From Lachnospiraceae bacterium P6B14 (GTDB taxonomy: Bacteria; Bacillota; Clostridia; Lachnospirales; Lachnospiraceae): 52,375 bases of DNA. The stretch's first letter is position 1, and every line of letters starts with the position of its first letter. The position numbers and the translations under genes were made by a program. The notes under the pieces were generated by a model. That model had not been told where the DNA came from. It did not search any database and saw nothing but the letters and a program-made list of their open reading frames with translations. Below are positions 2,905 through 44,240 of this stretch, in pieces. The stretch lies in the NCBI GenBank assembly GCA_000687695.1, contig JHWZ01000016.1, positions 1 through 52,375 on the forward strand, in the 5' to 3' direction.

Positions 2905-2905
2905 C

Positions 2906-3124
2906 TCACACCCCCGCCTTCTCAAACAAATCACCTATTGTGGTAATCTCGATGGCCTGATCCAAAGGAATAGAAATCCCCATTTTTTCCTCCAAATCAC
3001 CAATGATTAAAATATGAGCGATCGAATCCCAATTCTTAATATCTTCAATTCTAGTATTCTCATCGATTGTATCATCTTCAATTTCTAACTTATTCTTTAT
3101 CAACTCAATTATTTGATTTCTCAT
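2906..3124 (-). CDS. Acyl carrier protein 1 (next to FkbH)
   Basis: A small acidic four-helix carrier protein of about 72 residues. The serine for the 4'-phosphopantetheine arm is in NWDSIAHI, and the C-terminal half has the usual ISIPLDQAIEITTIGDL pattern. The ATG at 3124 is preferred because GGAGG lies 8 bases upstream; a reading from 3139 would begin within that signal. Its position directly ahead of the GNAT and FkbH genes suggests that it carries the glyceryl group. It is one of five carrier proteins in the window, and no phosphopantetheinyl transferase was seen to activate any of them. Confidence 0.85.
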   Translation of the reverse strand: MRNQIIELIKNKLEIEDDTIDENTRIEDIKNWDSIAHILIIGDLEEKMGISIPLDQAIEITTIGDLFEKAGV

Positions 3125-3210
3125 AACATTCACCTCCAACTAATCATTCAATCTAATAAACAACAACACATAAATGTAGTCAATTCGCATGTTTTTTCCC
3201 AAAAGCCACA

Positions 3211-4119
3211 CTATTCCATCATTTTCACAGCTACAACCGCATTGTCTGGCGTCAAGCACTTAATATCTCCAATAATTGGATACGCCAAAAACGATTCTTT
3301 CGAATACATGCAATCTCCAATAAACTCCAGGCTTTTTTTAGTAATTGGGTCGCATAAACAAGTATCATTCACTCCCTGTGACTCAAAATCAGCCTCTTTC
3401 TTAATAATCATTATCCCTGAAGGGTTTAGTGGGTTCATTTTTGCTTCAGATAAATAGGGCTCCCAAGAAACAATGTTATAACCAAGCATCTTAGCTGCCC
3501 CGTACAGATTTGTTATGTAGCCAAGGTTTTCCATTCGTTTTTTCCCTTCTTCATCAGCAAACTCATATGCCGGTTCAATTAATATTAAATAATCTCGAGT
3601 AACACGATACAACTCCTTCAAGAGCTCCTTTTCCTCTCCACCATTTGGTTCCATTGCATGAACAGTATAAACAATACTTATTGAATTGTCCGAATATGGA
3701 ATGTGAAACATATCGGCCACATACAGATCTGCCCCCTCCAAATATTCTTTATTCCCTTGTGCCAAACTCATAGCCGCCTTAATACGCGACCATGAAATGT
3801 CAAATCCCCCAACATAATCAAAGCGGAACGATAGTTGTTTAAGCAAAGACAACAAGCTAGTAGCCTCTCCAACGCCACATTCAACAATGCTTTTCTTTGG
3901 ACAATTAAGCTTATTAATAGTCTTTGCTAAGCCATTAATATAAAGATCGACATTATTAGGATCCTCATAATATTTTTCAGTGTAAGTTCCAGCTTGGAAA
4001 TCATAACTAATCATGATGTCTTCTATAGAGTTTTTGTTCCCATCTCTAATATGAGAAATGATATTCCCTCCATCCAAGTAAATATCCCTAATCCTGTTTA
4101 AAACTGCTTTTTTATCCAT
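3211..4119 (-). CDS. Class I SAM-dependent methyltransferase with Trm112-like tail
   Basis: About 302 residues. A Rossmann methyltransferase core starts near residue 75 with IVECGVGEATSLL (motif I), then GGFDIS, VADMFHIPYSDNSISIV and a YLILIEPAYE strand. The last about 60 residues (CDPITKKSLEF to YPIIGDIKCL) resemble the Trm112/UPF0434 type small domain fused to many sugar or lipid methyltransferases. It lies directly upstream of the ACP-GNAT-FkbH genes. This fits O-methylation of a glyceroyl group or of the sugar, as known for di-O-methylglyceroyl pseudaminic acid in Campylobacter; that link is inference. The gene and its neighbours to the right are visibly richer in A+T than the flagellar part. 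Confidence 0.75.
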   Translation of the reverse strand: MDKKAVLNRIRDIYLDGGNIISHIRDGNKNSIEDIMISYDFQAGTYTEKYYEDPNNVDLYINGLAKTINKLNCPKKSIVECGVGEATSLLSLLKQLSFRFDYVGGFDISWSRIKAAMSLAQGNKEYLEGADLYVADMFHIPYSDNSISIVYTVHAMEPNGGEEKELLKELYRVTRDYLILIEPAYEFADEEGKKRMENLGYITNLYGAAKMLGYNIVSWEPYLSEAKMNPLNPSGIMIIKKEADFESQGVNDTCLCDPITKKSLEFIGDCMYSKESFLAYPIIGDIKCLTPDNAVVAVKMME

Positions 4120-4208
4120 AGTCTTCTACCTCATCTTTTTCTGGTATACATTTTTACTGTTATTATTTAAACAAAAAAACCACTAACAAATGCTTCTTTA
4201 ATTAGAAC

Positions 4209-5465: not shown

Positions 5466-5512
5466 CAATCATCAATCAGCCCACATGTATTGAACTATTT
5501 ACTAGCTTAATT

Positions 5513-6511
5513 TCAAAGATTGATCCCACAATCTCTAATAAGTCTGTCTCTAATTTCATCCACATCTAACCAATCACTATTATTTCCAGAATCATATTCA
5601 AAACCATGTGGAACTTTTCTTCCGTTACGATAACAGCTGTTATTCTCAAACCAATCAAAATGTGGATAAATCACATAGTGTTTGTCGTATTCATACGTGT
5701 TATAAGAGTCTTCTCGAGAAATCATTATTTCATGTATTTTTTCACCTTCTCGAATACCGATTTCTTTTAGTTCACACCCAGGTAACATTGCTTTAGCTAA
5801 ATCAACTACACGAAATGATGGGATTTTTGAAATAAAAGTTTCTCCACCAATCGAATGCTTCAAAGCATATAAAACAAGGTCAATCCCCTCACGAAGGCTT
5901 ATCCAAAAGCGAGTCATAGCATAATCAGTGATAGGCAAACATTTTTCTCCGGACTCAATAATTTTTTGAAAGAATGGTATAACCGACCCCCTGCTTCCAG
6001 CAACATTACCATATCGTACTACTGAAAATCTAGTACCATTCTCTCCAGAATATGAATTTGCAGCCGTAAACAATTTATCTGATACAAGTTTTGTACCGCC
6101 ATATAAATTTATAGGATTCACTGCCTTATCTGTTGAAAGCGCAATTACCTTAGTGACGCCGACATCTAATGCCGAGTTTATCACATTCATTGCACCGTTA
6201 ATATTCGTTTTTATTGCTTCATTAGGATTATACTCACAAGTGGGCACTTGCTTTAACGCCGCTGCATGTATAACATAATCAACCCCATTCATTGCTCTCC
6301 GCAGCCTAGCCTCATCTCTTACATCACCAATAAAAAACCTAAGTTTGTCAGAATAATCCTTAAACATATTCTTCATCAAAAACTGTTTATACTCGTCTCT
6401 GGAATACACAATAATTCTATCCAAATTGTAGTTCTCTAAGACGCTAGAAACAAAATGATGACCAAACGACCCAGTGCCACCAGTAATTAATACAGACTTA
6501 TTGTCCAACAT
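5513..6511 (-). CDS. pseB: UDP-N-acetylglucosamine 4,6-dehydratase (inverting), PseB-like
   Basis: About 332 residues, an extended short-chain dehydrogenase. The NAD(P) motif GGTGSFG is at residues 11-17, HAAALKQVPTCEYNP near 82, STDKA near 126 and YGGTK at 137-141. These are the signatures of the FlaA1/PseB/CapE group, with Asp-Lys in place of the classical serine pair. PseB converts UDP-GlcNAc to the 4-keto-L-arabino sugar, the first step to pseudaminic acid. The ATG at 6511 follows AGAGGTGAT at a good distance; an in-frame ATG at 6520 has no such signal. The partner aminotransferase PseC is not in the window. The PseA-like gene immediately precedes it in the transcript. Confidence 0.85.
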   Translation of the reverse strand: MLDNKSVLITGGTGSFGHHFVSSVLENYNLDRIIVYSRDEYKQFLMKNMFKDYSDKLRFFIGDVRDEARLRRAMNGVDYVIHAAALKQVPTCEYNPNEAIKTNINGAMNVINSALDVGVTKVIALSTDKAVNPINLYGGTKLVSDKLFTAANSYSGENGTRFSVVRYGNVAGSRGSVIPFFQKIIESGEKCLPITDYAMTRFWISLREGIDLVLYALKHSIGGETFISKIPSFRVVDLAKAMLPGCELKEIGIREGEKIHEIMISREDSYNTYEYDKHYVIYPHFDWFENNSCYRNGRKVPHGFEYDSGNNSDWLDVDEIRDRLIRDCGINL

Positions 6512-6526
6512 GAGAATCACCTCTTT

Positions 6527-7663
6527 TCACTCACCAACTGTAAACTTCGGTTTCCATTTTCCAAATTCATCTTTATAAAACAGATCTGTATTAACAAATC
6601 TATCTACCACCGCCCAGAATTCATCTTTGGAAATCCCAATATAATCACACGCTTTATCTATAAAACACTCACCGCATTTTCCATCATATTCCTTCACATA
6701 CCATTTTGCCTCCTCTCGAGACAATCTACCTTCCCTTATATCATAACAGACCTGATCAGTCGTAGCTCCAAATCCAAATTTTAAATACTTAATCATTTGG
6801 TTGACCACATTTACATCCGAATCGACCGATGCAAAAATCCTATACCAACCCAAATCATGTAAGTCCACATCCGTCCTTCCTCTAAGTCCTCTTGCGACTG
6901 CAAAATCAGCATTCCCTGTTTGGGACCATTCCTTAACGTAATACTGAAGCCAAATTGCTCTAATACCTCTCTTTTTCATATCATTAATACTAGGCATCTG
7001 ATATGGATACATATCCTCTATATCTATATCTGTTCCACTGATTAGTTTTTCAACATCAAATCCATCTATAGTATTCAAATCAACAACATTAAAGGCATTC
7101 CCAGAAGTGTCCTGTCTTTCAGCAGTCCCTAATGTCAGTGCTGCATTTTCGCCTTGAATCACCAACGGAATGTTGTAATTATATGCAATTCTAAACGCAG
7201 ATGACCAAAGACAATACTCTGATGCAGCCATCAAATTCCCTTTTTCATAGAAGCACTTTTTTGAAAGTTTTCGAGCAATATTAGGGTTCACCCTAATTGA
7301 AATAATATCAAATCCCCCACTAATTCTTCCAAGATTATCAAGATTATATACTCCTGCTTCGGTGTTATCACCTGATGCGCAATTGACAAGCAAAGGGCGA
7401 AGCCCGAGCTTCTCTTTTGCATATACAGCCTGAAAAGTACTGTCTTTTCCCCCAGAAACTCCTATAACACAATCATAATAGTTACCTCGCTCTCTTCGTT
7501 CTTTTCTTGCCCAATCAGCTATCTCCTTTAGTTCCTCGTTCCGTTTATCCCAATTGATTTTCAATTTCTTTTCTTCATACAAGCACGCATAGCAGACACC
7601 ATCCTCATTGAAAACTATCCCAGGGCGTGTGTCGGGTTGTAAACATTTCCTACAGTATATCAT
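6527..7663 (-). CDS. pseA: N-acetyl sugar amidotransferase (PseA/WbpG type)
   Basis: About 378 residues. It begins with a zinc-ribbon-like pair, CRKC and CYAC, and then has the PP-loop ATP pyrophosphatase motif SGGKDS near residue 70. The rest (GENAALTLGTAERQD, GRTDVDLHDLGWYR, CGECFIDKACDYIGI) follows the N-acetyl sugar amidotransferase family. These enzymes turn an acetamido group of a sugar into an acetamidino group, as PseA does in Campylobacter flagellin glycan. In lipopolysaccharide loci the WbpG homologue works with HisH/HisF-like partners; none is visible here, which resembles the lone PseA arrangement. The ATG at 7663 lies 8 bases after GGGAGG. It is four-way compact with pseB downstream. 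Confidence 0.83.
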   Translation of the reverse strand: MIYCRKCLQPDTRPGIVFNEDGVCYACLYEEKKLKINWDKRNEELKEIADWARKERRERGNYYDCVIGVSGGKDSTFQAVYAKEKLGLRPLLVNCASGDNTEAGVYNLDNLGRISGGFDIISIRVNPNIARKLSKKCFYEKGNLMAASEYCLWSSAFRIAYNYNIPLVIQGENAALTLGTAERQDTSGNAFNVVDLNTIDGFDVEKLISGTDIDIEDMYPYQMPSINDMKKRGIRAIWLQYYVKEWSQTGNADFAVARGLRGRTDVDLHDLGWYRIFASVDSDVNVVNQMIKYLKFGFGATTDQVCYDIREGRLSREEAKWYVKEYDGKCGECFIDKACDYIGISKDEFWAVVDRFVNTDLFYKDEFGKWKPKFTVGE

Positions 7664-7668
7664 TTTCT

Positions 7669-9099
7669 TCACCTCCCAATAATTGTTTTTAGTGCTTTAT
7701 TTGCATTATAGACCGCATTTTTCTTGTATGGATAAGTCGGAGGAGAATACCCTTCCGCTTTAGGCAACAATTCAATTAATTCATCAACACTTTCAAACCA
7801 TTTTGCACATCCATTATCTACAAGCACTGCTTCGACATGGCTATTAGCCGCTTTCGAATAAATAAAAGCCATTTTATCAAGTTCAATAGAATCCTTTAAC
7901 GCTGTACTCATCGTACCGACAACGCAATAAGCTGAAGACACAAAATCAAAAATATCTCCATTTCTTCTTTCACCAACAACTACCACTGAAGAAGTAACCA
8001 AATCTGGATATTTTTCCCTCCAATTCTGTTCCTCATCCGGATGAAGTTTGAAAAGAACACTAAAATCACTCTCTTTCAAACGATCAGCCAAGTCAATTGC
8101 CACTTTATATAAATCCGTATAAACAGAACTATCTGAAATAAAAACAATTTTTTTCTTTCCCCTATTGGATTTATATTTCATTGTTTCCCTTACATGAGAA
8201 ATCCGATCTTCTACATACGCATTTCCAATAGCAAACAAATTCTCATTTGGAATTGGAAGATGCTTATAGTCACCATGAAGTATGGGCAGTTCTCCTCTAC
8301 ACCATCTATAACGACAACTCCCTTCAAGCGGATGGTCCAGTTTAGGATAGTAGTCCAAAATATGTGCCCCATTGCCATAATAATGTTCATATTCAATCGT
8401 AGCAATTCCTAGTTGATTAGCAGCCGCCATCAAGTATTGGTATGCTTGAAACTCTCCCATCATGAACACTATAGCTTTGGGTCTTATTTTTTTTAACAAA
8501 TGATAATAATACATCATAAATCTTTTTCTGTTCTGTGCGGCAGATATCACACATTCAAACAACCCCTCTCTATCGTTTTCTGTTAGCTTTATATTAAAGC
8601 TTTTCTCAATCATGCTAATAAACCCATTCACTCTACGATCTGTTTCTTTATCAATTCTAAATTTGCATGTCATTCCCCCTGGATTGAAATAAAAAACATT
8701 CTTTGTATTCACTTCACCCCACAAATTAATTCGGCTTCCTGGTTCCATAACCTGCCAACTATATTCAATTCCATCTACTAAACCATCAATATATGGACTT
8801 ACTCTTTCATTCCCTCTCCATACTCTTCTTGGATGATTCGCAAAAAGAACATCCGACTGCTTGCAATCAAAGTATCCGCCGTATTTAAAAAGCTTATACA
8901 ACGACTCATCTTCATTGCTTTTCAAAAAACTAACACTTCTCTTTGTTTCTTCATTCTTATAGTATCTTCGAATCAAAAACCAAACTTCATCTCTAATGTA
9001 CTCCCATACCGGAGCCCCTTTGATTCGCCAATTGAATAGGCCATGCTTCTTCTCGAATTCAACAAACCAACCATATCTATCTATTTCAATTTGATTCAT
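7669..9099 (-). CDS. Putative GT-B type glycosyltransferase of a surface-glycan family
   Basis: About 476 residues, with no signal peptide or membrane helix seen. The N-terminal half (FNWRIKGAPVWEYIRDEVW, FMMGEFQAYQYLMAAANQLG) and C-terminal half look like two Rossmann-like lobes. The later segment has KKKIVFISDSSVYTDLY, FKLHPDEEQNW and VGTMSTALKDSIEL, the pattern seen in CDP-glycerol/polysialyl-type GT-B enzymes, where HPDE lies in the second lobe. I do not recognise a precise family. It ends exactly in the ribosome binding site of the pseA-like gene, so the two are coupled. A role as transferase of the sugar made by the neighbouring enzymes is plausible but unproven. Confidence 0.55.
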   Translation of the reverse strand: MNQIEIDRYGWFVEFEKKHGLFNWRIKGAPVWEYIRDEVWFLIRRYYKNEETKRSVSFLKSNEDESLYKLFKYGGYFDCKQSDVLFANHPRRVWRGNERVSPYIDGLVDGIEYSWQVMEPGSRINLWGEVNTKNVFYFNPGGMTCKFRIDKETDRRVNGFISMIEKSFNIKLTENDREGLFECVISAAQNRKRFMMYYYHLLKKIRPKAIVFMMGEFQAYQYLMAAANQLGIATIEYEHYYGNGAHILDYYPKLDHPLEGSCRYRWCRGELPILHGDYKHLPIPNENLFAIGNAYVEDRISHVRETMKYKSNRGKKKIVFISDSSVYTDLYKVAIDLADRLKESDFSVLFKLHPDEEQNWREKYPDLVTSSVVVVGERRNGDIFDFVSSAYCVVGTMSTALKDSIELDKMAFIYSKAANSHVEAVLVDNGCAKWFESVDELIELLPKAEGYSPPTYPYKKNAVYNANKALKTIIGR

Positions 9100-9155
9100 T
9101 TTACACCTCTTTTTCTAAAATAATAAAACCATCCGTTTTTCAGCAAATAAAGCTA

Positions 9156-9683: not shown

Positions 9684-9727
9684 CTCTATTCTCCTTTCAC
9701 ATAATTATAAATCAATACTTACTTTGC

Positions 9728-10522
9728 TTAATTATCTAGTGCATCACATGATTCTTTATACCTTCTTTCCAACATTTTTAATCGCTGTCCATCCTCCTGT
9801 TCCATATCCATATAGAAATGACATTTGTTCTTGAGATATAGCATCTCAAATTCCAACGCCAGCACCAACCCATTTTCCAACTCCTTTTCCGTTTGTTCAA
9901 TTGAAAAAACTATTTTTCTTGTTTCAAACTTGTCTAGATAGTCTTTCAAACTGAAGAGAACTGGAATACTATCAAGCGAAACGCCACCTCCGATACCTAC
10001 TTTCAGTCCCCTACATTTTGCCTTCATGGCAAAGTCCTTAGCCACACCTCGTACAACATCCCCATCGATGTCAGATCTTCCAAGTCCCATTGAGGCAGAC
10101 AAATCCACACGGCCAATTGATATTGTATTTAGAAAACCTTCTCCTTCATCCAAAATATCATCAAAATAATCCCTACATGTCTTGGTTTCAGCATTGATGA
10201 TCCACTCGATATTCCTAACCTCATCCTTATAGACCTTCTTCGCGGCATTTCTAAACTTTCTCATCGCAAATGGCGTCTCTATCATCGGAGCCATAATTCC
10301 CGACGCCCCAAGAAGTTTGCACTGGTCGAGGTCCCTAACCGCCTCGCATCCGCCGATCTTAATAAACAGATCCATTTCGGCGCGAAACACAACCTCATTT
10401 AGCATGATTAGTTCATCAAGTCTGGACCCTTCGGCCTCAAACTCTGCTTTAACAGCCAAAACTCCGTATTCATACTTTAGTTCACGAAGCACTTCCAACA
10501 TACGTTTTTCCACCAGATTCAT
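9728..10522 (-). CDS. HpcH/HpaI aldolase / citrate lyase beta family protein
   Basis: About 264 residues with a TIM-barrel layout. Motifs include LRELKYEYGVLAVKAEFE, KIGGCEAVRDLDQCKLLG, GIMAPMIETPFAMRKF, WIINAETKTCRDYFDDI, and ISIGRVDLSASMGL, the usual substrate and metal residues (Glu in ETPFA/NAETKT, Asp in GRVDL). The family splits or joins C-C bonds using pyruvate, acetyl-CoA or related enolates. It follows the TPP enzyme gene by 18 bases. In this cluster it could act on the same keto acid as the TPP enzymes and the NeuB-like protein; this is inference. Two ATGs are possible; 10531 lies too close to GGGAG, so 10522 is preferred. Confidence 0.72.
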   Translation of the reverse strand: MNLVEKRMLEVLRELKYEYGVLAVKAEFEAEGSRLDELIMLNEVVFRAEMDLFIKIGGCEAVRDLDQCKLLGASGIMAPMIETPFAMRKFRNAAKKVYKDEVRNIEWIINAETKTCRDYFDDILDEGEGFLNTISIGRVDLSASMGLGRSDIDGDVVRGVAKDFAMKAKCRGLKVGIGGGVSLDSIPVLFSLKDYLDKFETRKIVFSIEQTEKELENGLVLALEFEMLYLKNKCHFYMDMEQEDGQRLKMLERRYKESCDALDN

Positions 10523-10540
10523 AATGCACATATCTCCCTT

Positions 10541-12346: not shown

Positions 12347-12361
12347 CACTTATCTCCTTAC

Positions 12362-15956: not shown

Positions 15957-15963
15957 CGTATCA

Positions 15964-16203
15964 TCAAAACTCTATCTGATAATTAGCAGACAGAATCTCC
16001 TTTCCTTTCTCATATGACGAAAAATCGATGATATCATCCGCATCCATCATGATATCAAAGGCATCCTCTATACACGCAATTAAATTCATATGGCCTACCG
16101 AATCCCACGTTTCAACATCTTGATACTTTAGGCCTACATACTGCCCATCTTCGATCTCGAGCGCCTCTACAAAGGCGCCATTATACTTTTCCATATTTGT
16201 CAT
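15964..16203 (-). CDS. Acyl carrier protein 2
   Basis: About 79 residues, a carrier-protein fold with the attachment serine in TWDSVGHMNL. The N-terminal helix and the acidic second helix (CIEDAFDIMMDADDI) fit the family. The ATG at 16203 has AAGGAGG at 8 bases upstream and is preferred over the longer reading from 16233. The start overlaps the end of the preceding acyltransferase-like gene by about 23 bases. It lies between that gene and the second TPP enzyme, so it may accept an acyl group that is then handed to a sugar. The cargo is not evident from the sequence. Confidence 0.83.
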   Translation of the reverse strand: MTNMEKYNGAFVEALEIEDGQYVGLKYQDVETWDSVGHMNLIACIEDAFDIMMDADDIIDFSSYEKGKEILSANYQIEF

Positions 16204-17023
16204 GTTGTTTTCCTCCTTGGATAAAAATATCATTATATAAGTACGATGCGCTCTGCACTGCCTTCATAAAATCATCGTTCAACCTACCAGTTGCAACCTT
16301 ATTATTTTTACTAACCCACCAGTAATTTGTACGAATGCCATTATCCCAACACTCATCATAAATCCGTCTTTCAATGTTATAAAGGTAATTTGCCGGACCC
16401 TTGTTCACGCTAACATGACTATAAAGCTTATTCTTCTCTATTCGAAAAACATAATATGTAACAATCCTATTCTTCACGCGTACAAGTATACACTCACGAT
16501 TTTTAATAATTTGTTCCCATTCCTCCAAGGTCATAACTTCATCCAATTGTGGATTGAATATCTCCCTATGGATTTGAAACAATTCATCTAGATCATCCAA
16601 TGTTGCAAATTCACCAAATTCTGGATTATAGAGTTTTTGGAGCAATGCTCTCCGTCCATGTTCCGGAATATCACCTAGTCGAGTGTGGTACGTGTAGGAA
16701 TATCTAACCGAAGTATCTCGTAATTCAAACCCCCCCTCCTCAATCATTTTTTTATCTGGATTATTTCCATCTTCTCTATAAACCGTCTCTAAAACCGATC
16801 CTTCCGGAGCATGAATAAGTAATTCTGAAATCCCCTTCGTTTCACATCCCGCATAGAAACAACGTGTCCGGAATCGTTCTGGGCACCAGAAAACAAGATT
16901 ATTACCACTCTCCACTGTATTTACTCTCGTTTTATCCGCGACCATACCTGTAATATAATTTGTCATAAAGCCCCCCAACTCCCGATACGTCCGCATTCGT
17001 TCAACTATTTCCTCAATTAACAT
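16181..17023 (-). CDS. Two-domain GNAT-like acyltransferase, uncharacterised
   Basis: About 280 residues from the ATG at 17023, which follows GGGGGG by 4 bases and overlaps the adenylation gene by 11 bases; a longer reading to 17170 would lie within that gene. The layout suggests two GNAT-like halves: an N-terminal one with LVFWCPERFRTRCFYAG and a C-terminal one with LDELFQIHREIFNPQLDEV and LVRVKNRIVTYYVFRIE. The region with YNIERRIYDECWDNGIRTNY is helical. I do not recognise an exact family. Placement between an amino-acid adenylation gene and an ACP suggests that it moves an activated aminoacyl group to an acceptor. This is inference. Confidence 0.55.
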   Translation of the reverse strand: MLIEEIVERMRTYRELGGFMTNYITGMVADKTRVNTVESGNNLVFWCPERFRTRCFYAGCETKGISELLIHAPEGSVLETVYREDGNNPDKKMIEEGGFELRDTSVRYSYTYHTRLGDIPEHGRRALLQKLYNPEFGEFATLDDLDELFQIHREIFNPQLDEVMTLEEWEQIIKNRECILVRVKNRIVTYYVFRIEKNKLYSHVSVNKGPANYLYNIERRIYDECWDNGIRTNYWWVSKNNKVATGRLNDDFMKAVQSASYLYNDIFIQGGKQHDKYGKV

Positions 17024-18557
17024 CTTGCCCCCCAAAAATATACCTTTCTCTGAGCAGTTTTCTGTCAATTTTGCCATTGTCATTGTACGGAAACATCTTG
17101 ATTTCAAAATAGGCAGTAGGGACCATGTATTTCGGGATGGTTTTGAGTAGGTGGTTCTGCAAATCCTCATCCATCACATCACCACTATAAAACAATACAA
17201 TCTGATTGTTTTTTTTATCATAATCCGCACAACACACTTTGATTGCTTCCAATCCCATCACAGCCGATTCGATTTCCCCTAATTCAATACGATAGCCAAG
17301 ATGTTTGATTTGAAAATCTTTTCGCCCAATAAATTCCAGTTCTCCTCTTTTATTATAGCAAACCAAATCGCCAGTAAGATACATCTTCTCGCCATAATAT
17401 GGATTCAAAGGATTATTTATAAACCTTTCATTTGTCTTCTCTGCATCTCCCCAATATCCTATTGACAGAGAACTACCATAGACACATAATTCCCCTTGTT
17501 TCCCTATCTGTTTTTCTCCAACTACCACCCCCTCATCATCAAGCACTATGAGACCAGTGTTCTCACACGCTTTTCCAAGTGGCAATGTATCTGAATCATC
17601 AAACTCTCGATCCAAAATATAGTAGGTACAGTTAACCGTTGCTTCCGTCGGACCATAGACATTTGCAACCATCCGTAAATTTGGTAGCCACTTTTTCCAA
17701 TAATTCAATTGCTTAACCGGCATAACCTCGCCACCAAACATAATTGTCTCTACATCAGGCAACTCTATCCGACTCAATAAATCATAATTTGCTATACTTA
17801 CAAATGCAGATGGAACCCAGTAAAGAAAATTAACTTGTTTATCATTAATAAACCTAAGTACTTGTACCGGAAAGGCAAAAAGCTTTGGCGGAATAATCGC
17901 CAGTGTCGCTCCTGTCTTTAATGTGGCATAGATATCTTGTGTGGATATATCGAAATAAAACGGTGATTGATTCCCCATAATCGTCTTTTCATTGATTGGA
18001 AATACAGATACGGCCCAGTCAATGTAATCAATCACATTATGGTTATTGATAATTACTCCCTTCGGAACTCCTGTTGATCCAGACGTAAAAAACACATACA
18101 CCGGATCAACATCTAAGATTCTTCGGACCATACGAATTCCGTCTTGATAATTTCCATTCCTTTCGACTTCATCAATATTTATAATTAAATACTCTCTCGC
18201 CCAAATAAACTCCTTAAGGACAGTCTCTGTCTCATTGTTTACCAAAATGGCGGACGGCATCAACACGTCAATTATCCCCTTAATCTTTTCTTCAGGGAAG
18301 CGCACATCCGTCGGTGTATAGAAGTTTCCGCTGTATAAAACCCCCATAAAAGAAACAATTGAAGAAACCGTTTTAGGAAGATAAACTAGAATCGGATTTC
18401 TTCGTCCTTTTAGTCTATTCTCGATGTGACGTGCAAGATCAATTGCTTTCTCACGCAGCTCTCCGAATGAGATTTCATTCTCCCCGTCAAGAAATGCAAC
18501 TTTATGTGGCGTCCTCTCAGCCGTCTCTTCAAGATAGCACAAAACCGAATTTTTCAT
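17013..18557 (-). CDS. Amino acid adenylation enzyme (AMP-binding, DltA/NRPS A-domain type)
   Basis: About 514 residues, a full adenylate-forming enzyme. The P-loop-like FTSGSTGVPKG lies at residues 157-167, the A4 motif FYFDISTQDI near 201, FGGEVMPV near 280, NVYGPTEATVNCT near 305, YLTGDLVCYNKRGELEFIGR near 390, and the C-terminal lysine in NGKIDRKLL. The Asp in A4 is the residue that holds the amino group in amino-acid-specific domains, so an amino acid (for example alanine) is the likely substrate. The stand-alone ACP at 18588 directly upstream is the natural partner. Together they resemble DltA-DltC. Start 18557 follows GGAGGG; 18572 would sit in front of that signal. Confidence 0.88.
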   Translation of the reverse strand: MKNSVLCYLEETAERTPHKVAFLDGENEISFGELREKAIDLARHIENRLKGRRNPILVYLPKTVSSIVSFMGVLYSGNFYTPTDVRFPEEKIKGIIDVLMPSAILVNNETETVLKEFIWAREYLIINIDEVERNGNYQDGIRMVRRILDVDPVYVFFTSGSTGVPKGVIINNHNVIDYIDWAVSVFPINEKTIMGNQSPFYFDISTQDIYATLKTGATLAIIPPKLFAFPVQVLRFINDKQVNFLYWVPSAFVSIANYDLLSRIELPDVETIMFGGEVMPVKQLNYWKKWLPNLRMVANVYGPTEATVNCTYYILDREFDDSDTLPLGKACENTGLIVLDDEGVVVGEKQIGKQGELCVYGSSLSIGYWGDAEKTNERFINNPLNPYYGEKMYLTGDLVCYNKRGELEFIGRKDFQIKHLGYRIELGEIESAVMGLEAIKVCCADYDKKNNQIVLFYSGDVMDEDLQNHLLKTIPKYMVPTAYFEIKMFPYNDNGKIDRKLLRERYIFGGQDVN

Positions 18558-18587
18558 AACGCATCCCTCCATGGATCACGTATAGTT

Positions 18588-18824
18588 TCACTTTGTTTTT
18601 TCTCTACTCTTCTCTATCAACTTAATCATCGCATGAACCGACGAAAAATTCTCCGGAATAACATCTAATCCATCCACAAGAATATGATATTCTTCTTCTA
18701 TTTCCGCCACTATAGACACAACATCAAACGAATCCAAATAACCATCTTCCACAAAATCACTGCTAGATCTAAAATCAAACTCCGGTCGTAACTTCTTAAG
18801 CATTTCGTATAATCTATCTTCCAT
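18588..18824 (-). CDS. Acyl/peptidyl carrier protein 3 (DltC-like)
   Basis: A 78-residue carrier protein. The phosphopantetheine serine lies in GYLDSFDVVSIVAEIEEEY, whose LDSFDVV pattern resembles DltC and other carriers that take aminoacyl groups. It directly precedes the adenylation gene with 30 bases between them, and follows the KAS III gene. The likely role is to accept an aminoacyl group from that adenylation enzyme. It could alternatively serve the KAS III upstream. A ribosome binding site AAAGGAAAG is present before the ATG. Confidence 0.83.
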   Translation of the reverse strand: MEDRLYEMLKKLRPEFDFRSSSDFVEDGYLDSFDVVSIVAEIEEEYHILVDGLDVIPENFSSVHAMIKLIEKSREKTK

Positions 18825-18845
18825 TTTTCTTTCCTTTCTCTAACT

Positions 18846-19904
18846 CTATAAATTGGAATTGATATTCTCGCAAAAAGACAGCGGTAACAATCTCATCAGC
18901 ACCGTTGTCCAGGTCAATCCCGCTCCGAATCCTGCTATACAGCACAAATTATCTCGACTCATCAACTCATCTGCAACGTCTGTTGTCATAACAGCCGGAA
19001 TTGTTCCAGAATCAGAATTACCAAGTGTTTCAGTAATATCATTCGGCATTTTTTCATATGGAACATCTAACTTGTCAGCTAACTTCTGAAGCATAAACTT
19101 ATTGGGCTGATGAAAAAGATAATAATCAACGTCCTCTTTCGTTTTTCCTGCCGCTTTCAGGACTTCAAATACAGCATCCGGAACCTCTCGTTGTGCAAAA
19201 TTGAAAACGTCCGAACCGTCCATTTCCACTCCTGAGCAAGGGCAATTCGATGTCATTTGGTTAATCATCTCTGGTGTCATCGGATTTCTGAACCCACCAT
19301 AACGAATTATTAAACTATCGTAATAAGCTCCATCATTATATACATTGGTATAAATTGGCAAATCTTCTTTTGTGTTCTCAATAACCGATATATTAGCTAT
19401 ATCACCTCCAAAAGAAGGATGATCAAGCTTAGGTTCATCCATATTTGATTTCCTGTTAAATATCTCCCCAGTACATAAAATTACCTTTCGATCAGTCATG
19501 TGTTCCAATAGCATGAATGCGTGTATTAGCCCCATAACATACCCAGAACACGCCTGTGGAATATCCAAACAGTACACATCTTTTGGTAGTTCCATCTCAC
19601 CATGGATAATCGAACTGATCTGTGGTAAAAAATAATCCGGGCAGAGTGTTGATACGATAACAGCTCCAATCTCATCCCGTGATATATAGCCACAATCAAT
19701 CATGTAATGAAGTCCATAAAGAATCAAATCTGACATCGTTGTTTCAGCCTTTACACGGCGTCTCTTACCATATCCGATGATTCTTTTTAAGCGTTTTGCC
19801 TTGACATCATCGGGATTCAGCACCTCATCCTCAAATACGTATTCCTTTTCTGGAAGAATCGACACCACACCGGTAATCTTCTTCCCTTTAAAGTCCAATC
19901 TCAA
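18846..19904 (-). CDS. KAS III-like 3-oxoacyl-ACP synthase (copy A)
   Basis: About 352 residues, a thiolase-fold enzyme. The catalytic triad is intact: Cys119 in PQACSGYV, His265 in FHQPN and Asn296 in LGNSDSGTIP. KAS III joins an acyl-CoA to malonyl-ACP; sugar-acylating relatives usually lose the Asn, so true condensation is still possible here. It has relatively few residues in common with the second KAS III at 20943, so the two probably use different primers or acceptors. An SDR and an ACP lie just upstream. The set would give a short 3-oxoacyl-ACP and then a 3-hydroxyacyl-ACP. No chain-elongating KAS or dehydratase is present, so the chain should stay short. Confidence 0.87.
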   Translation of the reverse strand: MRLDFKGKKITGVVSILPEKEYVFEDEVLNPDDVKAKRLKRIIGYGKRRRVKAETTMSDLILYGLHYMIDCGYISRDEIGAVIVSTLCPDYFLPQISSIIHGEMELPKDVYCLDIPQACSGYVMGLIHAFMLLEHMTDRKVILCTGEIFNRKSNMDEPKLDHPSFGGDIANISVIENTKEDLPIYTNVYNDGAYYDSLIIRYGGFRNPMTPEMINQMTSNCPCSGVEMDGSDVFNFAQREVPDAVFEVLKAAGKTKEDVDYYLFHQPNKFMLQKLADKLDVPYEKMPNDITETLGNSDSGTIPAVMTTDVADELMSRDNLCCIAGFGAGLTWTTVLMRLLPLSFCENINSNL

Positions 19905-19936
19905 TCTTTTTTCCTTCTTTTGTATAGATTTCTTAG

Positions 19937-20698
19937 TTACCTTGACTTGCGGCCACCGCTTACAGAAATCAATCCACCGGTAATATAAGCCGCCCTCTCC
20001 GATAACAAAAATGCTATCTGCTCAGCTATTATTTTAGGCGGGATTATTCCAAATGGTTGTTTATCCTTCTCGATTTTAGAATCTATGGCTCCATTTTCGC
20101 AGGCGCCATAAACACCGGCCATGATTTGCCCCTTTTCACGTGCCATCTCCGTATCAACGCCTCCGGGAAGAATAGCATTTACCCGGATAAACCGGCTGGC
20201 AAACTCCACTGCCATCGTCTGAACCACCGAGTTAAGGGAAGCTTTTGATGCTGTATATGACATCAATCCCTTCTCATGGGACAAACTCGCTATTGACGAT
20301 ATGGCGACGATAGATGAACCGTCCATCGAGTACTTTTTTTTATAAAAATGCTTTGCCGCCTCAACAAATGCAAAACAGTTTACATCCATCATCTCGCGCA
20401 TTCGATCAATCCGGTTTGTTTTAACCGGCCACACTCCATCGATTCCGGCACTGTAAACCATGCCATCCAACTTGAATTCACCCTCTTCACATGGTCTGAA
20501 AACGGATTGAATTCCTTCTAAATCATGCAGATCATATGTCACGGGTATAACACTCCCCGGAAGATTTGACGCCAAACTCTCAAGTCTCTCCGTTCGCCTC
20601 GCTACGAGAATCAGTCGAACATCCTTACCTGCAAGCTGTCTCGCACAGGCCGCACCTATACCGGAAGATGCTCCAAAAATGATATAACTCTTAGGCAT
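19937..20698 (-). CDS. SDR-family oxidoreductase, ACP-linked (copy A)
   Basis: About 253 residues. The cofactor site GASSGIG is near residue 9, the VYSAG motif near 86, serine in AISSIAS near 135, and YTASK near 150. The C-terminus reads AAYITGGLISVSGG. It shares several patches with the SDR at 22204 (KLDGMVY, KxKQxFGxIP, AxYITG), so the two form a duplicated pair. Its start overlaps the end of the ACP gene by 8 bases, which strongly suggests joint use of that carrier. The likely reaction is reduction of a 3-oxoacyl-ACP made by a neighbouring KAS III. It may alternatively act on a keto sugar. Confidence 0.85.
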   Translation of the reverse strand: MPKSYIIFGASSGIGAACARQLAGKDVRLILVARRTERLESLASNLPGSVIPVTYDLHDLEGIQSVFRPCEEGEFKLDGMVYSAGIDGVWPVKTNRIDRMREMMDVNCFAFVEAAKHFYKKKYSMDGSSIVAISSIASLSHEKGLMSYTASKASLNSVVQTMAVEFASRFIRVNAILPGGVDTEMAREKGQIMAGVYGACENGAIDSKIEKDKQPFGIIPPKIIAEQIAFLLSERAAYITGGLISVSGGRKSR

Positions 20699-20927
20699 CC
20701 GAACGTTCCTCCGTTATCTCTCTGATAAGATCTCCAATAGTCTCCAGAGCAACGATTTCATCTGCATGCGGATAGCGTCCGGTTGCATCGCTGATCATCG
20801 AGATTGCGCCAAGCACGGCTACCGAATCCCACGTTTCGAACGAATCAAGTCGTGCCTTCTCATCAACTTCTGACTCCTCGATCTCAAGAAGTTCCGCTAT
20901 CTGTTCAATAATCTCATTTCTATCCAT
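20691..20927 (-). CDS. Acyl carrier protein 4
   Basis: About 78 residues with the attachment serine in TWDSVAVLGAISMI and an acidic helical N-terminus (EIIEQIAELLEIEESEVDE). The ATG at 20927 has a GGTGAT signal 5 bases upstream and is preferred over 20939. It sits between the KAS III copy B (16 bases upstream) and SDR copy A (8-base overlap), so it probably carries the intermediate between them. It is a normal-length carrier with no visible oddity. Confidence 0.85.
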   Translation of the reverse strand: MDRNEIIEQIAELLEIEESEVDEKARLDSFETWDSVAVLGAISMISDATGRYPHADEIVALETIGDLIREITEERSDA

Positions 20928-20942
20928 AAATATCACCACTAT

Positions 20943-21950
20943 CTATATCTTAAACTCATCTCTGTCGTCATAAATATAATCAGACAACGTAACATCTCCG
21001 ATTGCATCCGAACGTATTTCTGTCTGAACACACCCCCAACTAAGACCAATACCAAAACCACACATGAATACTTTCAATCTCTCTTTTCCTTGTAACTTCT
21101 CCTGATGTACACAAAGAGTTAGTGGAATCGATGCTGATGAAGTATTTCCATACTCCTCACATGATTGGATCACCCGGTCACGCGGGATACCGGCTTCCTG
21201 TACCACACCTTCGACAATCATTTTTTGGGCTTGATGTAACACAAAACAATCTATCTCGTTCTCGTCCTCTTCTGTCAGAAACTCATGGATCATGGCAGCC
21301 ACATCACTTAGCCCGAAAAGAAGCACTGCATTTCCATCCATACGCCCACGTCCATCGTGTCGACAAAACAGCAATTTGGCACGTTCACCATCTCCGTCAT
21401 GACGAAACCGAAGCTCAACTTCACTCCCGGTATATTCAAGAGCCGTCGCTGCCGCAGCATCACCATCCAGCATCGCATTGTGGTTGTCAGTATTATCTTC
21501 AATCGCGTTGCTCTCACCAACAAACAGAAGTCCTTTCCCTCCATTTTGCGAAAGCAGGCTCCCTATAACGCTAAGACCTATCACATAGCCGGCACATCCT
21601 TGGTTAATATCAAATATCAAACACTGTTTTCCAATGCCCAGTCTCTTTTGGATCAAAAAAGCACTTCCCGGCCGATTCAGATCACCTGACTGTGTCACAT
21701 AGATTAACACGCGAATCTCATCTCGGTTCCACTCAAGCTTAGAAAGAAGCCTCTCTCCGGCAACTGTTGCCAAATCTGTTGCAGTTTGACCTCCGGTCGT
21801 TACATGTCTGTGTCGAATCCCGGTAAGACGCACCTGCTTAGTTGCTCTTTTATCGCCGAGGTTTTTTGCCAGTTCTTCATTGTCAACGGTATTTGCAGGA
21901 ACCGCTGATTCTATTCCTCGTATTTCTACTCCACTTATGCTTCCTTGCAT
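20943..21950 (-). CDS. KAS III-like 3-oxoacyl-ACP synthase (copy B)
   Basis: About 335 residues. The Cys-His-Asn triad is complete: Cys in NQGCAGYV (about 119), His in VLHQAQ (about 239) and Asn in YGNTSSASIP (about 269). The AlaGly-rich nucleophile loop and FGIGLSWG end are classical for FabH. The ATG at 21950 follows GAGGGTAAGG; the GTG at 21962 directly after the ACP stop is the less likely start. It lies between two ACP genes. It is expected to start a short acyl chain, for example acetoacetyl-ACP from acetyl-CoA and malonyl-ACP. It may serve flagellin sugar decoration rather than membrane lipid because it is embedded in this locus. Confidence 0.87.
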   Translation of the reverse strand: MQGSISGVEIRGIESAVPANTVDNEELAKNLGDKRATKQVRLTGIRHRHVTTGGQTATDLATVAGERLLSKLEWNRDEIRVLIYVTQSGDLNRPGSAFLIQKRLGIGKQCLIFDINQGCAGYVIGLSVIGSLLSQNGGKGLLFVGESNAIEDNTDNHNAMLDGDAAAATALEYTGSEVELRFRHDGDGERAKLLFCRHDGRGRMDGNAVLLFGLSDVAAMIHEFLTEEDENEIDCFVLHQAQKMIVEGVVQEAGIPRDRVIQSCEEYGNTSSASIPLTLCVHQEKLQGKERLKVFMCGFGIGLSWGCVQTEIRSDAIGDVTLSDYIYDDRDEFKI

Positions 21951-21962
21951 CCTTACCCTCAC

Positions 21963-22187
21963 TTATGCGTTCGGTATGTAATCACATATATCTCCTACAG
22001 TTTTAAAACCTGTCAATCTCTCCGTCGTCAAATCCATCCCATATCGATGCTTCATCTCAACCACAAGTGACAAAGCGCTGAGCGACTCCCATTCTTCGAT
22101 CTCACTGAGGCGACATTCACGTGTCAGTGGTTCCCCCTCATAGTCCATGATTTCCATCAGGAACTCTATTTTTTCACTTTCTGTCAT
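21963..22187 (-). CDS. Acyl carrier protein 5 (ESL motif)
   Basis: A 74-residue carrier-like protein. The serine expected to hold phosphopantetheine lies in EWESLSALSLVVEMKHRYG. The residue before it is Glu instead of the Asp of the usual DSL/DSV motif, a mild but notable change that still leaves the serine. The C-terminal FKTVGDICDYI helix is typical. It is located between SDR copy B (16 bases upstream) and KAS III copy B. It probably serves as the second carrier of that pair. Modification by a phosphopantetheinyl transferase is presumed. Confidence 0.8.
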   Translation of the reverse strand: MTESEKIEFLMEIMDYEGEPLTRECRLSEIEEWESLSALSLVVEMKHRYGMDLTTERLTGFKTVGDICDYIPNA

Positions 22188-22203
22188 ACCTCTTTACTCC
22201 TTA

Positions 22204-22935
22204 TCATCCTCTGTGGTATCCGGCACTTATTACCATCAACTCACCTGTAATATACATAGCATCATCTGATAACAAGTATTGAATTGCTTCCACAACCTGT
22301 TCCACGGGAATCACCCCGAATGCCTGTTTATTCTTAACGAAATCGATGTCTTCATCACTCCATTTGTTAGCTCCATCTCCCATTTTCGACTGAACAATCG
22401 CCGGCAATACAGCATTCACACGTATCCGTCTCTTTGCAAACTCCTGCGACATAGCACGTACCGCTGCGTTCATTGCTGCCTTTGACATCGCATATGCTGA
22501 CATTCCTTTCTCACATAGCAACGCCTCATAAGATGACAGACCCACAATAGATGCTCCGGCATTTGATGCTCGCTTGCTCTGAAACTGCCTACTCATCTCA
22601 TAAAACCCATAAGTGTTAATTCGAAACATCTCATCAAGTGTATCCACGTCTGTTTCCTTAACCGGTTTCGTAAAGCACATACCTGCAGCATAGACCATAC
22701 CATCAAGCTTGATCTGGCGATTTTCTATCTCATCAAACAAACTACGGATACTATCCTTATCTCTCACATCGCAGGATATAGCATCCGCATTGTTTAATCC
22801 CCTTAACAGTAAAGACAGTCTGTCCATTCTTCTGGCTGTTAGGATCAAACGGACTCCCATTTTATCTAATTGATACGCCAGCTTTGTCCCAATTCCACCG
22901 GTCGCACCTACTATCAGTATTGTTTTTCCTTTCAT
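22204..22935 (-). CDS. SDR-family oxidoreductase, ACP-linked (copy B)
   Basis: About 243 residues. The cofactor motif GATGGIG is near residue 9, VYAAG near 84, serine in GLSSYEA near 133 and YAMSK near 147. It resembles the SDR at 19937, including the KNKQAFGVIPVEQ and AMYITGELMVIS patches. The ATG at 22935 follows GGGGTGAGT; a GTG one step earlier also is possible. It overlaps the GNAT gene end by a few bases. As a partner of KAS III copy B and ACP 5 it probably reduces a 3-oxoacyl group to a 3-hydroxyacyl group; 3-hydroxybutyryl groups are known substituents of pseudaminic and legionaminic acids. Confidence 0.85.
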   Translation of the reverse strand: MKGKTILIVGATGGIGTKLAYQLDKMGVRLILTARRMDRLSLLLRGLNNADAISCDVRDKDSIRSLFDEIENRQIKLDGMVYAAGMCFTKPVKETDVDTLDEMFRINTYGFYEMSRQFQSKRASNAGASIVGLSSYEALLCEKGMSAYAMSKAAMNAAVRAMSQEFAKRRIRVNAVLPAIVQSKMGDGANKWSDEDIDFVKNKQAFGVIPVEQVVEAIQYLLSDDAMYITGELMVISAGYHRG

Positions 22936-22937
22936 AC

Positions 22938-23930
22938 TCACCCCGGTCTGTCCTGATCACCGTCTCCACGAAACATACGTAAACCATCAATACTGGGTTC
23001 TATCATGTTCAGTGTGACGTTTTTCTGTTCAAATGGATAAAAATGATTGGGTATGATGTTTTCACTTTCCTCATCACACCTAACAAATCCGGCTTTTTCA
23101 TAAATCACGGGAGATACACCGTATGAATAAACATCGATAAACTCATACCCTCGTTCCTGCATCAGTTGATCCAGTGCATCGGTAATCCTGGTGAATCTCT
23201 CAATATCTCCGTAATAGTCAATGATCTTCACTATCTTTGAGCCTTGGGACTCAACTTCTCGCGTGATCATTACCGCATCAGATTTTTTATTATCATACTC
23301 AATCTTCCATATCTCATAGTGAAAAACCGGATGCTCAAAATATCTGCGTTCTATATATCGGTAATCTTTACTCATAACATGAGTCCTTAGCGATTCATCC
23401 GATATCACGGCTCGCATCTCTTCTATGCTTGTTATCGGTATCAGTCGATAATCCGATTTGTCTTCAACGTTAGGAACTATTGGATCCACAACACATGCAA
23501 TCTTATAATCCATTTTGGGGTTCAGCCGATAATAATGATCCATTGAAGTGGGCTTTCCACCCTTCAACTCATATATTCTTTGGGATTTTTTTGTCAGATG
23601 CGAAGCCACTGAGTACCTCACATTGATCTCTTTCAATGCATATTCAGTGATTTCCATTCCTAAAAGGGGATTCTCACACTTAATCGCCCGCCATACACAG
23701 CCCGAAATATCAGGATGTTCACTGTGGTTATACGGTACATACCCCATTGTCCCATAGATAGTCCCATCGTCTCCAATCCCGATAAACATATTGATCGTTT
23801 CATCTTCAACAAATTGCCACTCAAAAAACTCACGATTTGTCGCTATTATGTTTCCCGGTTTCCAATGCTCATCCAGAAAACGCATTATATTGGGAATATC
23901 TACTATTTCAGCTCTTCGAATCGAAATCAA
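22938..23930 (-). CDS. GNAT-fold acyltransferase, two-domain
   Basis: About 330 residues. The first half begins ISIRRAEIVDIPNIMRFLDEHW and contains FIGIGDDGTIYGTMGYVPY, a classical GNAT pattern. The second half (YRYIERRYFEHPVFHYEIW, QLMQERGYEFIDVYSYG, YEKAGFVRC) is a second degenerate GNAT-like lobe. Proteins of this kind occur in sugar-modification loci and may use acyl-ACP rather than acetyl-CoA. It is the first gene behind the sigma-A promoter at about 24.0 kb and stands ahead of the SDR/ACP/KAS III set. That makes it a good candidate for transfer of the short acyl group made by that set to an amino sugar, which is inference. Confidence 0.72.
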   Translation of the reverse strand: MISIRRAEIVDIPNIMRFLDEHWKPGNIIATNREFFEWQFVEDETINMFIGIGDDGTIYGTMGYVPYNHSEHPDISGCVWRAIKCENPLLGMEITEYALKEINVRYSVASHLTKKSQRIYELKGGKPTSMDHYYRLNPKMDYKIACVVDPIVPNVEDKSDYRLIPITSIEEMRAVISDESLRTHVMSKDYRYIERRYFEHPVFHYEIWKIEYDNKKSDAVMITREVESQGSKIVKIIDYYGDIERFTRITDALDQLMQERGYEFIDVYSYGVSPVIYEKAGFVRCDEESENIIPNHFYPFEQKNVTLNMIEPSIDGLRMFRGDGDQDRPG

Positions 23931-42036: not shown

Positions 42037-42060
42037 AATGATTACCTCTCTTTTCTTTCT

Positions 42061-42077
42061 CTCACAATCCTTGTGAG
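42061..42077 (-). promoter_or_regulatory. CsrA-type GGA hairpin in flagellin copy 1 leader
   Basis: The leader forms a stem CTCACA/TGTGAG with loop AGGAT, so the GGA of a CsrA site is exposed. It is 25 bases upstream of the ATG. The ribosome binding site of this copy (GAGAGGTAA) lacks a GGA, unlike the site in copy 2. Confidence 0.65.
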
Positions 42078-42151
42078 TGGAATTGGTTTATTTTTTGTTA
42101 TCTTATTATCTTACCGGTATTAGAAGCATTCCCTTGCTCCTTACACCATAT

Positions 42152-44233: not shown

Positions 44234-44240
44234 AATAATA

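Follow-up and report, generated by a model that had tools for sequence, protein, structure and literature searches.

Modular carrier-protein genes as probable acyl donors for surface sugars in a flagellin glycosylation island of Lachnospiraceae bacterium P6B14

The window analysed here is the entire contig JHWZ01000016.1 (G000:C16; 52,375 nucleotides) of the 2.69 Mb genome of Lachnospiraceae bacterium P6B14. It harbors, beside flagellar genes, an operon-like row of 36 genes, all on the minus strand (704-37156, intergenic gaps of -29 to +89 bases), in which genes for acyl carrier proteins (ACPs) and their partner enzymes are interleaved with sugar genes. The analysis of these genes and of their relatives makes it rather probable that the operon provides modular, carrier-protein-based acyl donors, with which flagellin (surface) sugars are decorated at their amino groups prior to the action of a Maf-type transferase. 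This general role is likely, and each chemical product, like every substrate and acceptor sugar, is a prediction. The kinds of genes are known, their combination is new, and their arrangement is not random, since the same modules recur in many genomes. Sorting the carrier genes of the island into recurring modules with their own carriers predicts distinct substituents, which can be checked by mass spectrometry. The acyl modules contain the following genes.

704..2368 (-), FkbH-type HAD enzyme (TIGR01686, 323.1 bits against a cut-off of 146.65; PDB match 3slr)
2365..2934 (-), GNATa, single Gcn5-related N-acetyltransferase (GNAT; Pfam Acetyltransf_3)
2906..3139 (-), ACP1 (PF00550, 33.8 bits; NWDS motif)
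10541..12349 (-), TPP1, acetolactate-synthase-type thiamine diphosphate (ThDP) enzyme with three thiamine pyrophosphate (TPP) domains
12362..13132 (-), SDRc, short-chain dehydrogenase/reductase (SDR; PF13561)
13129..14157 (-), NeuB2, distinct NeuB-family synthase (PF03102)
14154..15956 (-), TPP2, ThDP enzyme (best PDB match 8rph, 'Thiamine pyrophosphate-binding protein')
15964..16203 (-), ACP2 (TWDS motif; no Pfam match)
16181..17023 (-), GNATb, tandem GNAT (no Pfam match; GNAT by predicted fold alone)
17013..18572 (-), Aden, amino-acid adenylation enzyme (PF00501, 198.3 bits; TIGR01733, 313.9 bits, slightly below the cut-off of 317.4)
18588..18824 (-), ACP3 (LDS motif; no Pfam match)
18846..19904 (-), KASa, ketoacyl-ACP synthase III (KAS III; ACP_syn_III_C, 72.7 bits)
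19937..20698 (-), SDRb, ketoreductase-like, modules 3/4 (PF13561)
20691..20939 (-), ACP4, modules 3/4 (PF00550, 20.1 bits against a cut-off of 20.8; TWDS motif)
20943..21962 (-), KASb, KAS III (ACP_syn_III and ACP_syn_III_C above cut-offs)
21963..22187 (-), ACP5 (PF00550, 25.3 bits; EWES motif)
22204..22941 (-), SDRa, ketoreductase-like (PF13561)
22938..23930 (-), GNATc, tandem GNAT (no Pfam match; GNAT by predicted fold)

An earlier note, made from the sequence of the window, had described five small ACPs, two KAS III enzymes with a Cys-His-Asn triad, three SDRs, one amino-acid adenylation enzyme and two TPP enzymes on one strand, all of which were recovered. The five ACPs retain the attachment serine; the Pfam PP-binding model matches three of the five (one of them slightly below its cut-off), and ACP2 and ACP3 were assigned by size, motif and relatives. 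In KASa and KASb the Cys-His-Asn residues occur in a thiolase-fold/FabH context, NCBIfam FabH-like models matching below their cut-offs; in KASa, C119, H265 and N296 are invariant across six aligned sequences. The YxxxK motif was read in the sequence of the SDRs. Other elements of the earlier description had to be amended. The FkbH enzyme is real but lies outside the span 2906-23930 in which it had been placed; among the several GNATs, whose folds are present, GNATa likewise lies outside that span, and GNATb and GNATc are recognisable by predicted fold only. The supposed VOC protein finds no counterpart, no VOC family matching any of the open reading frames (ORFs) tested. The Pfam scan of 51 different window ORFs (E <= 0.001) agrees with the note in yielding no elongating KAS, malonyl transferase (FabD) or dehydratase (FabA/Z). 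One ACPS match and one FabD-family match are present in the genome. Two NeuB paralogues, a weak HpcH/HpaI-like protein and two LicD proteins had escaped attention.

Module 3 consists of Aden, ACP3, GNATb and KASa. Aden possesses the Asp of the amino-acid code and the invariant Lys of the NGKIDR motif (code positions were mapped on what we take to be those of PheA) and has the features of a stand-alone adenylation enzyme; it scores below the cut-off of the DltA (D-alanine ligase) model (297.4 against 559.85 bits). The AlphaFold2 model of GNATb (pLDDT 95.1) has VipF, a Sphaerobacter GNAT and WecD as best Foldseek matches, with MshD further down, and that of GNATc (pLDDT 89.5) resembles N-myristoyltransferase and Eis-type tandem GNAT folds. 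As the TM-scores are about 0.35-0.56, the predicted fold class of both proteins is clear and neither has a close homologue. In the proposed scheme, Aden would adenylate an amino acid and load it on ACP3, GNATb would acylate the nitrogen of the aminoacyl-ACP3, and KASa would extend the acylated aminoacyl-ACP3 once with a malonyl unit; an SDR would then reduce the ketone, and the product would be a 3-hydroxy-4-acylamino acyl group. No description of an Aden-ACP3-KAS III-tandem GNAT cassette was found in the open-access literature searched by words.

KASa occurs in six of the 299 genomes of the family, the window's included, and in the other five an Aden-type enzyme, ACPs and SDRs lie within the 20-40 kb fetched. 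One of them, a genome of the same genus (G108, L054/L055), resembles the window in that a single block contains GNATc, ACP5, KASb, two SDRs, Aden, ACP3 and KASa; unlike the window, its fetched 40 kb gave no match to NeuB, TPP or FkbH. When the KASa alignment of six sequences was run against GTDB genomes, 207 stretches matched, 112 of which encode relatives; the best 80 were kept as loci of at most 21 kb each, and their genes were clustered by BLAST and Louvain grouping. Five of the 80 are the seed contigs again (counted in the linkage figures and dropped from trees, codes, census and ACP5-pairing counts). The hosts include Lachnospiraceae, other Clostridia, Selenomonads, Paenibacillus, Bacteroidota, Treponema, Planctomycetes and others. 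The 80 loci contain Aden in 73 cases, an SDR in 64, a member of the GNATb cluster in 61, another ACP in 54, ACP3 in 52 and KASb in 30; a metallo-beta-lactamase-like protein is found in 29, an AAC(3)-like acyltransferase and DegT in 26 each, and a formyltransferase in 17. Carboxyltransferase (10) and FabD (7) genes, which fit malonyl use, are less common, as are NeuB (6), flagellin (4) and Maf (3). The GNATb cluster is a loose one, only 27 of its 72 members matching the window GNATb directly and the aligned members being 13-37% identical to it. The commonest labelled same-strand neighbour pairs are ACP3-KASa (40, ACP3-type directly before KASa), KASa-GNATb (29), ACP-SDR (26), SDR-AAC3 (25) and Aden-ACP3 (23). 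Even among the last 20 loci, all but one of them 38-42% identical, Aden is still present in 17. The metallo-beta-lactamase-fold protein of the 29 loci is possibly a thioesterase.

A KASa ORF above 200 bits is present in 76 of the 80 loci and in four there is none. In 67 of the 76, Aden lies within 4 kb of KASa; within the same distance, a GNATb-cluster member alone occurs in 50 loci, a formyltransferase alone in seven, both in five and neither in 14. We infer that GNATb and the formyltransferase are alternative N-acylators of aminoacyl-ACP3, after which KASa extends the chain. The adenylation codes (n=77) fall into groups, namely DIFFWALLD (23), DNLFLALVD (13), DIQYMGVVN (8, the window's included), DIYFWALLD (8) and others (25), which suggests that a single cassette layout is used for several different amino acids; the first position is the α-amino-binding Asp in 76 of the 77. 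An apparent ACP3-KASa fusion in L120 and L125 was discarded, the extra N-terminal residues matching no ACP model and looking like over-long starts.

Module 4 (KASb, SDRa/b, ACP5/4) would make a short 3-hydroxyacyl-ACP, e.g., 3-hydroxybutyryl-ACP, and GNATc would transfer the 3-hydroxyacyl group from the carrier to an amino sugar. Among 47 ACP5-type carriers (counted in 103 loci, five duplicates dropped), KASb lies within 2.5 kb in 25 and an SDRb-type SDR in 33. KASb is fused to a recognisable SDR domain in L079, L080 (these two seemingly close relatives) and L084, in five other long KASb proteins the C-terminal match is weaker or doubtful, and one ACP-KASb fusion in L113 may be an artefact. 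In another genome (G242, L064), KASb, SDRa, an ACP and GNATc adjoin NeuA, NeuB and NeuC, with no KASa in 20 kb. GNATc matches occur in 11 of the 299 genomes, the window's included; in all eight of the loci read among the ten others, the relatives adjoin carrier, ligase, KAS or transketolase genes. These neighbours are KASb/SDR/ACP (L055, L064), Aden (L069, L071), FkbH and ACP (L065), split transketolase/SDRc (L072, L073) or ACP and ligase (L205). Since the family is found beside four kinds of acyl modules, it is a likely mover of carrier-bound acyl groups to amino sugars, which is the role that these contexts suggest for GNATc.

FkbH proteins form glyceryl-ACP from 1,3-bisphosphoglycerate. In module 1, the window FkbH, a member of this family whose DxDxT motif is present as DLDNT, and ACP1 would make a glyceryl group, which GNATa would transfer; the methyltransferase at 3211 perhaps takes part. 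The set FkbH-ACP-GNATa is found again in L172, with NeuB on one side and Maf/flagellin genes on the other, and in L069 FkbH adjoins GNATa, with NeuB and NeuA. In Campylobacter jejuni NCTC 11168, pseudaminic acid bearing a di-O-methylglyceroyl group is known (PMC3068675).

The sugar context was assessed with a sampled census, in which Pfam was run on 130 non-core neighbours (136 drawn from 71 loci, at most two per locus, less six excluded because of their length). The top families are DegT (8), metallo-beta-lactamase (8), GT2 (7), formyltransferase (7) and hexapeptide (6), followed by GT1 (4), phage integrase (4), bacterial sugar transferase (3) and Maf-like (3); FabD-type acyltransferase, carboxyltransferase and ACCA families have two each, and no ketosynthase appears among the 25 families listed of 118. 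The genes found most often beside the cassette are those of surface sugars, whether flagellin is present or not; therefore, the cassette probably decorates amino sugars in general and not nonulosonic acids alone. The earlier note had proposed a multi-substituent donor system for nonulosonic acids. That proposal is supported in so far as it posits acyl donors borne on carriers for surface or flagellin sugars, but its scope was too narrow: the modules recur widely, yet NeuB, flagellin and Maf accompany only the few cassette loci counted above. Since NeuB occurs in 6/80 and flagellin in 4/80, and the cassette is also found in Bacteroidota and Treponema, donation to nonulosonates appears as one use of a wider kit. 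Homologous sets lying only beside lipid or polyketide genes, an outcome that the note had considered, were not what was observed.

As for known systems, the C. jejuni flagellar locus presumably contains acpP, fabH, FkbH and amino-acid-activation genes of similar kinds; closer documented parallels are the Pseudomonas syringae viosamine island, the group II flagellin glycosylation islands (FGIs) of Aeromonas and the Shewanella oneidensis sfmABCDE operon. In P. syringae, vioS, vioR, acp and vioB are assigned to N-(3-hydroxybutyryl)viosamine, and the modified viosamine is missing from the flagellin of a vioR mutant (PMC3927599). That island, like the window, uses a KAS III, a 3-oxoacyl-ACP reductase, an ACP and an acyltransferase for an N-acyl flagellin sugar; unlike the window, it has one KAS III, one ACP and one sugar, and none of its seven named ORFs is an adenylation enzyme, FkbH, ThDP enzyme or NeuB gene, all of which the window has. 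KAS III, SDR, ACP and an N-acyltransferase fold are found together in the flagellin island of the window.

The product of module 2 (ACP2, TPP2, NeuB2, SDRc, TPP1) is the one for which the statement of the earlier note that small acyl groups are to be expected is doubtful. This module would make a polyhydroxy or ulosonate-derived acid handled on ACP2, and a carrier-bound sugar acid is a possible product. Neither ThDP enzyme is an acetolactate synthase by its model (TPP1 311.7 and TPP2 321.4 bits against 538.35), and NeuB2 falls below the cut-offs of both NnaB (314 against 399.65) and PseI (278.5 against 340.25). The two NeuB paralogues of the window, NeuB1 and NeuB2, belong to different clades of a tree of 23 rows. 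The NeuB2 clade comprises the window, L092, L166 and L204 (support 100/98), and its three other members all have an ACP2-type carrier and a match to an SDR of the SDRc kind (32-39%). TPP2 relatives occur in two of these three loci, beside the NeuB2 relatives of L092 and L166 (49 and 52%). The window ACP2 is 60-63% identical to those of L166, L073 and L092. No NeuA match was found in L092, L166 and L204 within the fetched 17.7, 20 and 17 kb, and ten of the 17 non-clade NeuB rows (19 NeuB rows in total) have one within 6 kb. As a mark of the clade, the absence of NeuA is only suggestive, since the other seven rows (L068, L071, L082, L098, L168, L169, L172) likewise lack a NeuA match in this interval at the threshold used, although L071, L168, L169 and L172 show NeuA-like matches that are weaker or lie farther away; this absence was given up as a clean mark. 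In the class-wide search, NeuB2 relatives more than 50% identical occur in one of 390 other genomes (G560).

A substantial, if lesser, chance must be given to a different explanation of this module, i.e., that NeuB2 with TPP1 and TPP2 makes a second CMP-activated nonulosonate or a two-carbon-branched sugar, ACP2 being incidental. Carboligation by YerE/JanthE gives two-carbon-branched sugars, and 8rph, which TPP2 best resembles, is presumably JanthE. ThDP relatives of TPP2 are moreover common in the family (53/299), and those of L067 and L068 lie near NeuB1-type genes with no ACP2 match. Against this, in all three other members of the NeuB2 clade the fetched DNA encodes an ACP2-type carrier and yields no match to NeuA, and the window NeuA lies about 16 kb away, beside NeuB1. 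Two Treponema genomes contain ThDP relatives (28-41% identity), and a plasmid search with TPP2 returned one distant acetolactate synthase.

The Shewanella account describes sfmABCDE as NeuB, ThDP enzyme, reductase, methyltransferase and ATP-grasp genes; the flagellins of sfmA-D mutants migrate at the unmodified-protein mass, and its authors infer that a nonulosonate of 274 Da carries an outer moiety of 236 Da, which is probably nitrogen-free and can bear up to two additional methyls (PMC3765264). The likeness, judged by gene kind and not by sequence, is that NeuB, a ThDP enzyme and an SDR lie near a Maf gene, as they are adjacent at 12362-15956 in the flagellar locus of the window; the operon as described there has no carrier protein, unlike the window. 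For the flagellin of Treponema denticola, a substituent mass of 450.2 Da is given (PMC9481697). The masses are compatible with a reduced, methylated ulosonic acid, and the 236 Da of Shewanella equals C9H16O7 by sum, a compatibility that was not used as evidence.

ACP2-type carriers are present in 22 of the 299 family genomes. The 23 loci read (all but one of the 21 places outside the window and G016, together with the alignment seeds L073, L092 and L166) contain an AMP ligase of another type in 18 cases, LuxE in 15, LuxC in 15, SDRc in 12 and a split transketolase in seven; L073, L166 and L200 supplied query proteins and hence match themselves. A second widespread cassette of the family can be recognised here (L197-L216, L073, L166), with an ACP2-type carrier, AMP ligase, LuxE, LuxC, SDR and often a split transketolase; LuxE and LuxC are fused in L166, L201 and L209. 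Two surveys report ACP, 3-oxoacyl-ACP reductase, AMP-dependent synthetase, luxE and luxC in Aeromonas group II islands (PMC7874193) and ACP with reductase in enterobacterial FGIs (PMC4875605), and describe the ACP, reductase, ligase and LuxE/LuxC genes as fatty-acid functions, maybe adding a 'liposugar' component (PMC4875605, PMC7874193). The window is similar in having ACP and reductase in a flagellin island, and the same kinds of genes accompany the ACP2 relatives; it differs in having NeuB2 and two ThDP enzymes and, among the 51 ORFs scanned, no match to LuxE, LuxC or a second ligase, so that the five-gene set of Aeromonas group II is not found together. Elsewhere in the genome, LuxE and LuxC relatives occur in L219 (G000:C18), and L226 (G000:C8) encodes an AMP ligase whose identity to the L166 enzyme reaches 61%.

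The reading of the operon as a set of acyl donors for sugars has to be weighed against several points. The loading of ACP2 is left unexplained, because the window is without the ligase and the LuxE/LuxC that accompany this carrier elsewhere. The KASa scan was seeded with six cassette-bearing loci, so that the linkage counts lean upward. The loci with both (5) or neither (14) N-acyl-type gene near KASa are unexplained by alternative N-acylators. No amino acid could be named for Aden, as its code DIQYMGVVN matches no defensible known code. The window ORFs gave no match to DegT aminotransferases, a family with 12 matches in other parts of the genome, and no product, mutant or in vitro data for this organism were found in the literature searched. 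Finally, KASa might be a maker of acetoacetyl-ACP.

This last option is possible without being favoured. An ordinary KASa would make acetoacetyl-ACP, an SDR would reduce it to the 3-hydroxybutyryl form, and GNATb would form the amide between this acyl group and aminoacyl-ACP3. The resulting substituent would be N-(3-hydroxybutyryl)-aminoacyl, the amino acid itself undergoing no C-C extension. In favour of this, bacterial amino sugars are known to carry N-acylated amino acids, the predicted fold of GNATb is that of a tandem GNAT, and another ACP and an SDR are available in 54/80 and 64/80 KASa loci. However, 30 of the 80 loci contain KASb too, which would make such a KASa redundant, ACP3 immediately precedes KASa in 40 pairs, and KASa is retained in the seven of 76 loci where a formyltransferase replaces the GNAT.

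That some modules of a mosaic island are functionless relics seems improbable: module 2 is without the ligase and the LuxE/LuxC of most relatives and the HpcH-like match is partial, but the listed ORFs are uninterrupted, the catalytic motifs examined are all kept and the spacing is operon-like. Still less credible is a secreted small molecule (a lipopeptide or similar) made by carrier genes that merely adjoin the flagellar locus; adenylation, ACP, KAS and SDR genes also serve natural products, non-ribosomal peptide synthetase and DltA models match Aden below cut-offs and carboxyltransferase and FabD-type genes lie near some relatives, but sugar genes are the commonest among the 130 neighbours, with no ketosynthase in the families listed, and the window modules are interleaved with sugar genes in one dense row.

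In some relatives of the acyl-donor cassettes, a tyrosine recombinase (identified in scans of L087, L085 and L080) is enclosed by inverted CCTTAAG-N7-CTTAAGG sites, namely in L075/L087 (one contig; L087:4099-5240), L085 (71-1211) and L080 (2608-5686). Two divergent acyl-carrier cassettes flank the recombinase in L075/L087 and L080, and L085 begins at a contig end; single sites occur in L076, L079 and L088. The exact site has 11 occurrences in seven of 183 loci (nine distinct after the L075/L087 overlap) and none in three Markov simulations of the same 2.39 Mb. No such inverted site was found in the window with up to two mismatches allowed. The segment looks like a putative invertible switch or cassette-exchange point. 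If modules were swapped by recombination, the bacteria would have a ready means to alter the surface met by host receptors and phages. It is unlikely, though worth stating, that three propositions hold together: that KASa extends N-acylated amino acids on their carrier to give statine-like groups for sugars, that the NeuB2 ulosonic acid is handled as a carrier-bound acyl group and not as a CMP-sugar, and that cassettes are switched or exchanged by the recombinase in relatives. If so, two unreported chemistries would be at hand, and the substituents of flagellin and surface sugars would form a combinatorial, phase-variable alphabet.

The remaining features of the window are the following.

3211..4119 (-), S-adenosylmethionine methyltransferase (PF08241/PF13649)
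4209-5468, LicD-family protein (Pfam)
5513..6520 (-), nucleotide-sugar dehydratase/epimerase (PF02719, 335.9 bits)
6527..7672 (-), N-acetyl sugar amidotransferase (TIGR03573 WbuX, 350 bits against a cut-off of 203.2)
9728..10531 (-), HpcH/HpaI-like protein (PF03328, 29.9 bits against a cut-off of 25, positions 80-179 of 221)
24014-26287, LicD-family protein of 757 amino acids (Pfam)
28740-29936 (-), NeuC
29933-30628 (-), NeuA
30625-31641 (-), NeuB1
34514..35578 (-), CBS-nucleotidyltransferase (PF00483 and PF00571)
41218..50170 (-), flagellar block with two flagellins, a Maf-like (MptE-like) protein, FlgN, FliS, FliD, FlaG and FliW

NeuC, NeuA and NeuB1 form a CMP-nonulosonate core, TIGR03568 and TIGR03569 scoring above their cut-offs and CTP_transf_3 matching. 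The amidotransferase may serve acetamidino formation, to judge from its family, and the nucleotidyltransferase is presumably PtmE-like. An aldolase step by the HpcH-like protein was rejected, the match being weak and partial with no PDB relative at E <= 0.001. The G+C content of the island in 4-kb stretches is 36-45%; five other stretches fetched from the genome have 44-47.5%, a difference that hints weakly at acquisition. Among the nonulosonate genes, a PylC-like ATP-grasp protein lies beside a diaminopimelate-decarboxylase-like pyridoxal phosphate enzyme (32305-34502), and the pair may attach or modify an amino acid. Upstream of the operon there are glycosyltransferases and then the flagellar genes. 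The two flagellin genes (41218-42036 and 43418-44233) share a 300-base stretch with 88% identity, and one glycosyltransferase and one small gene are located between them.

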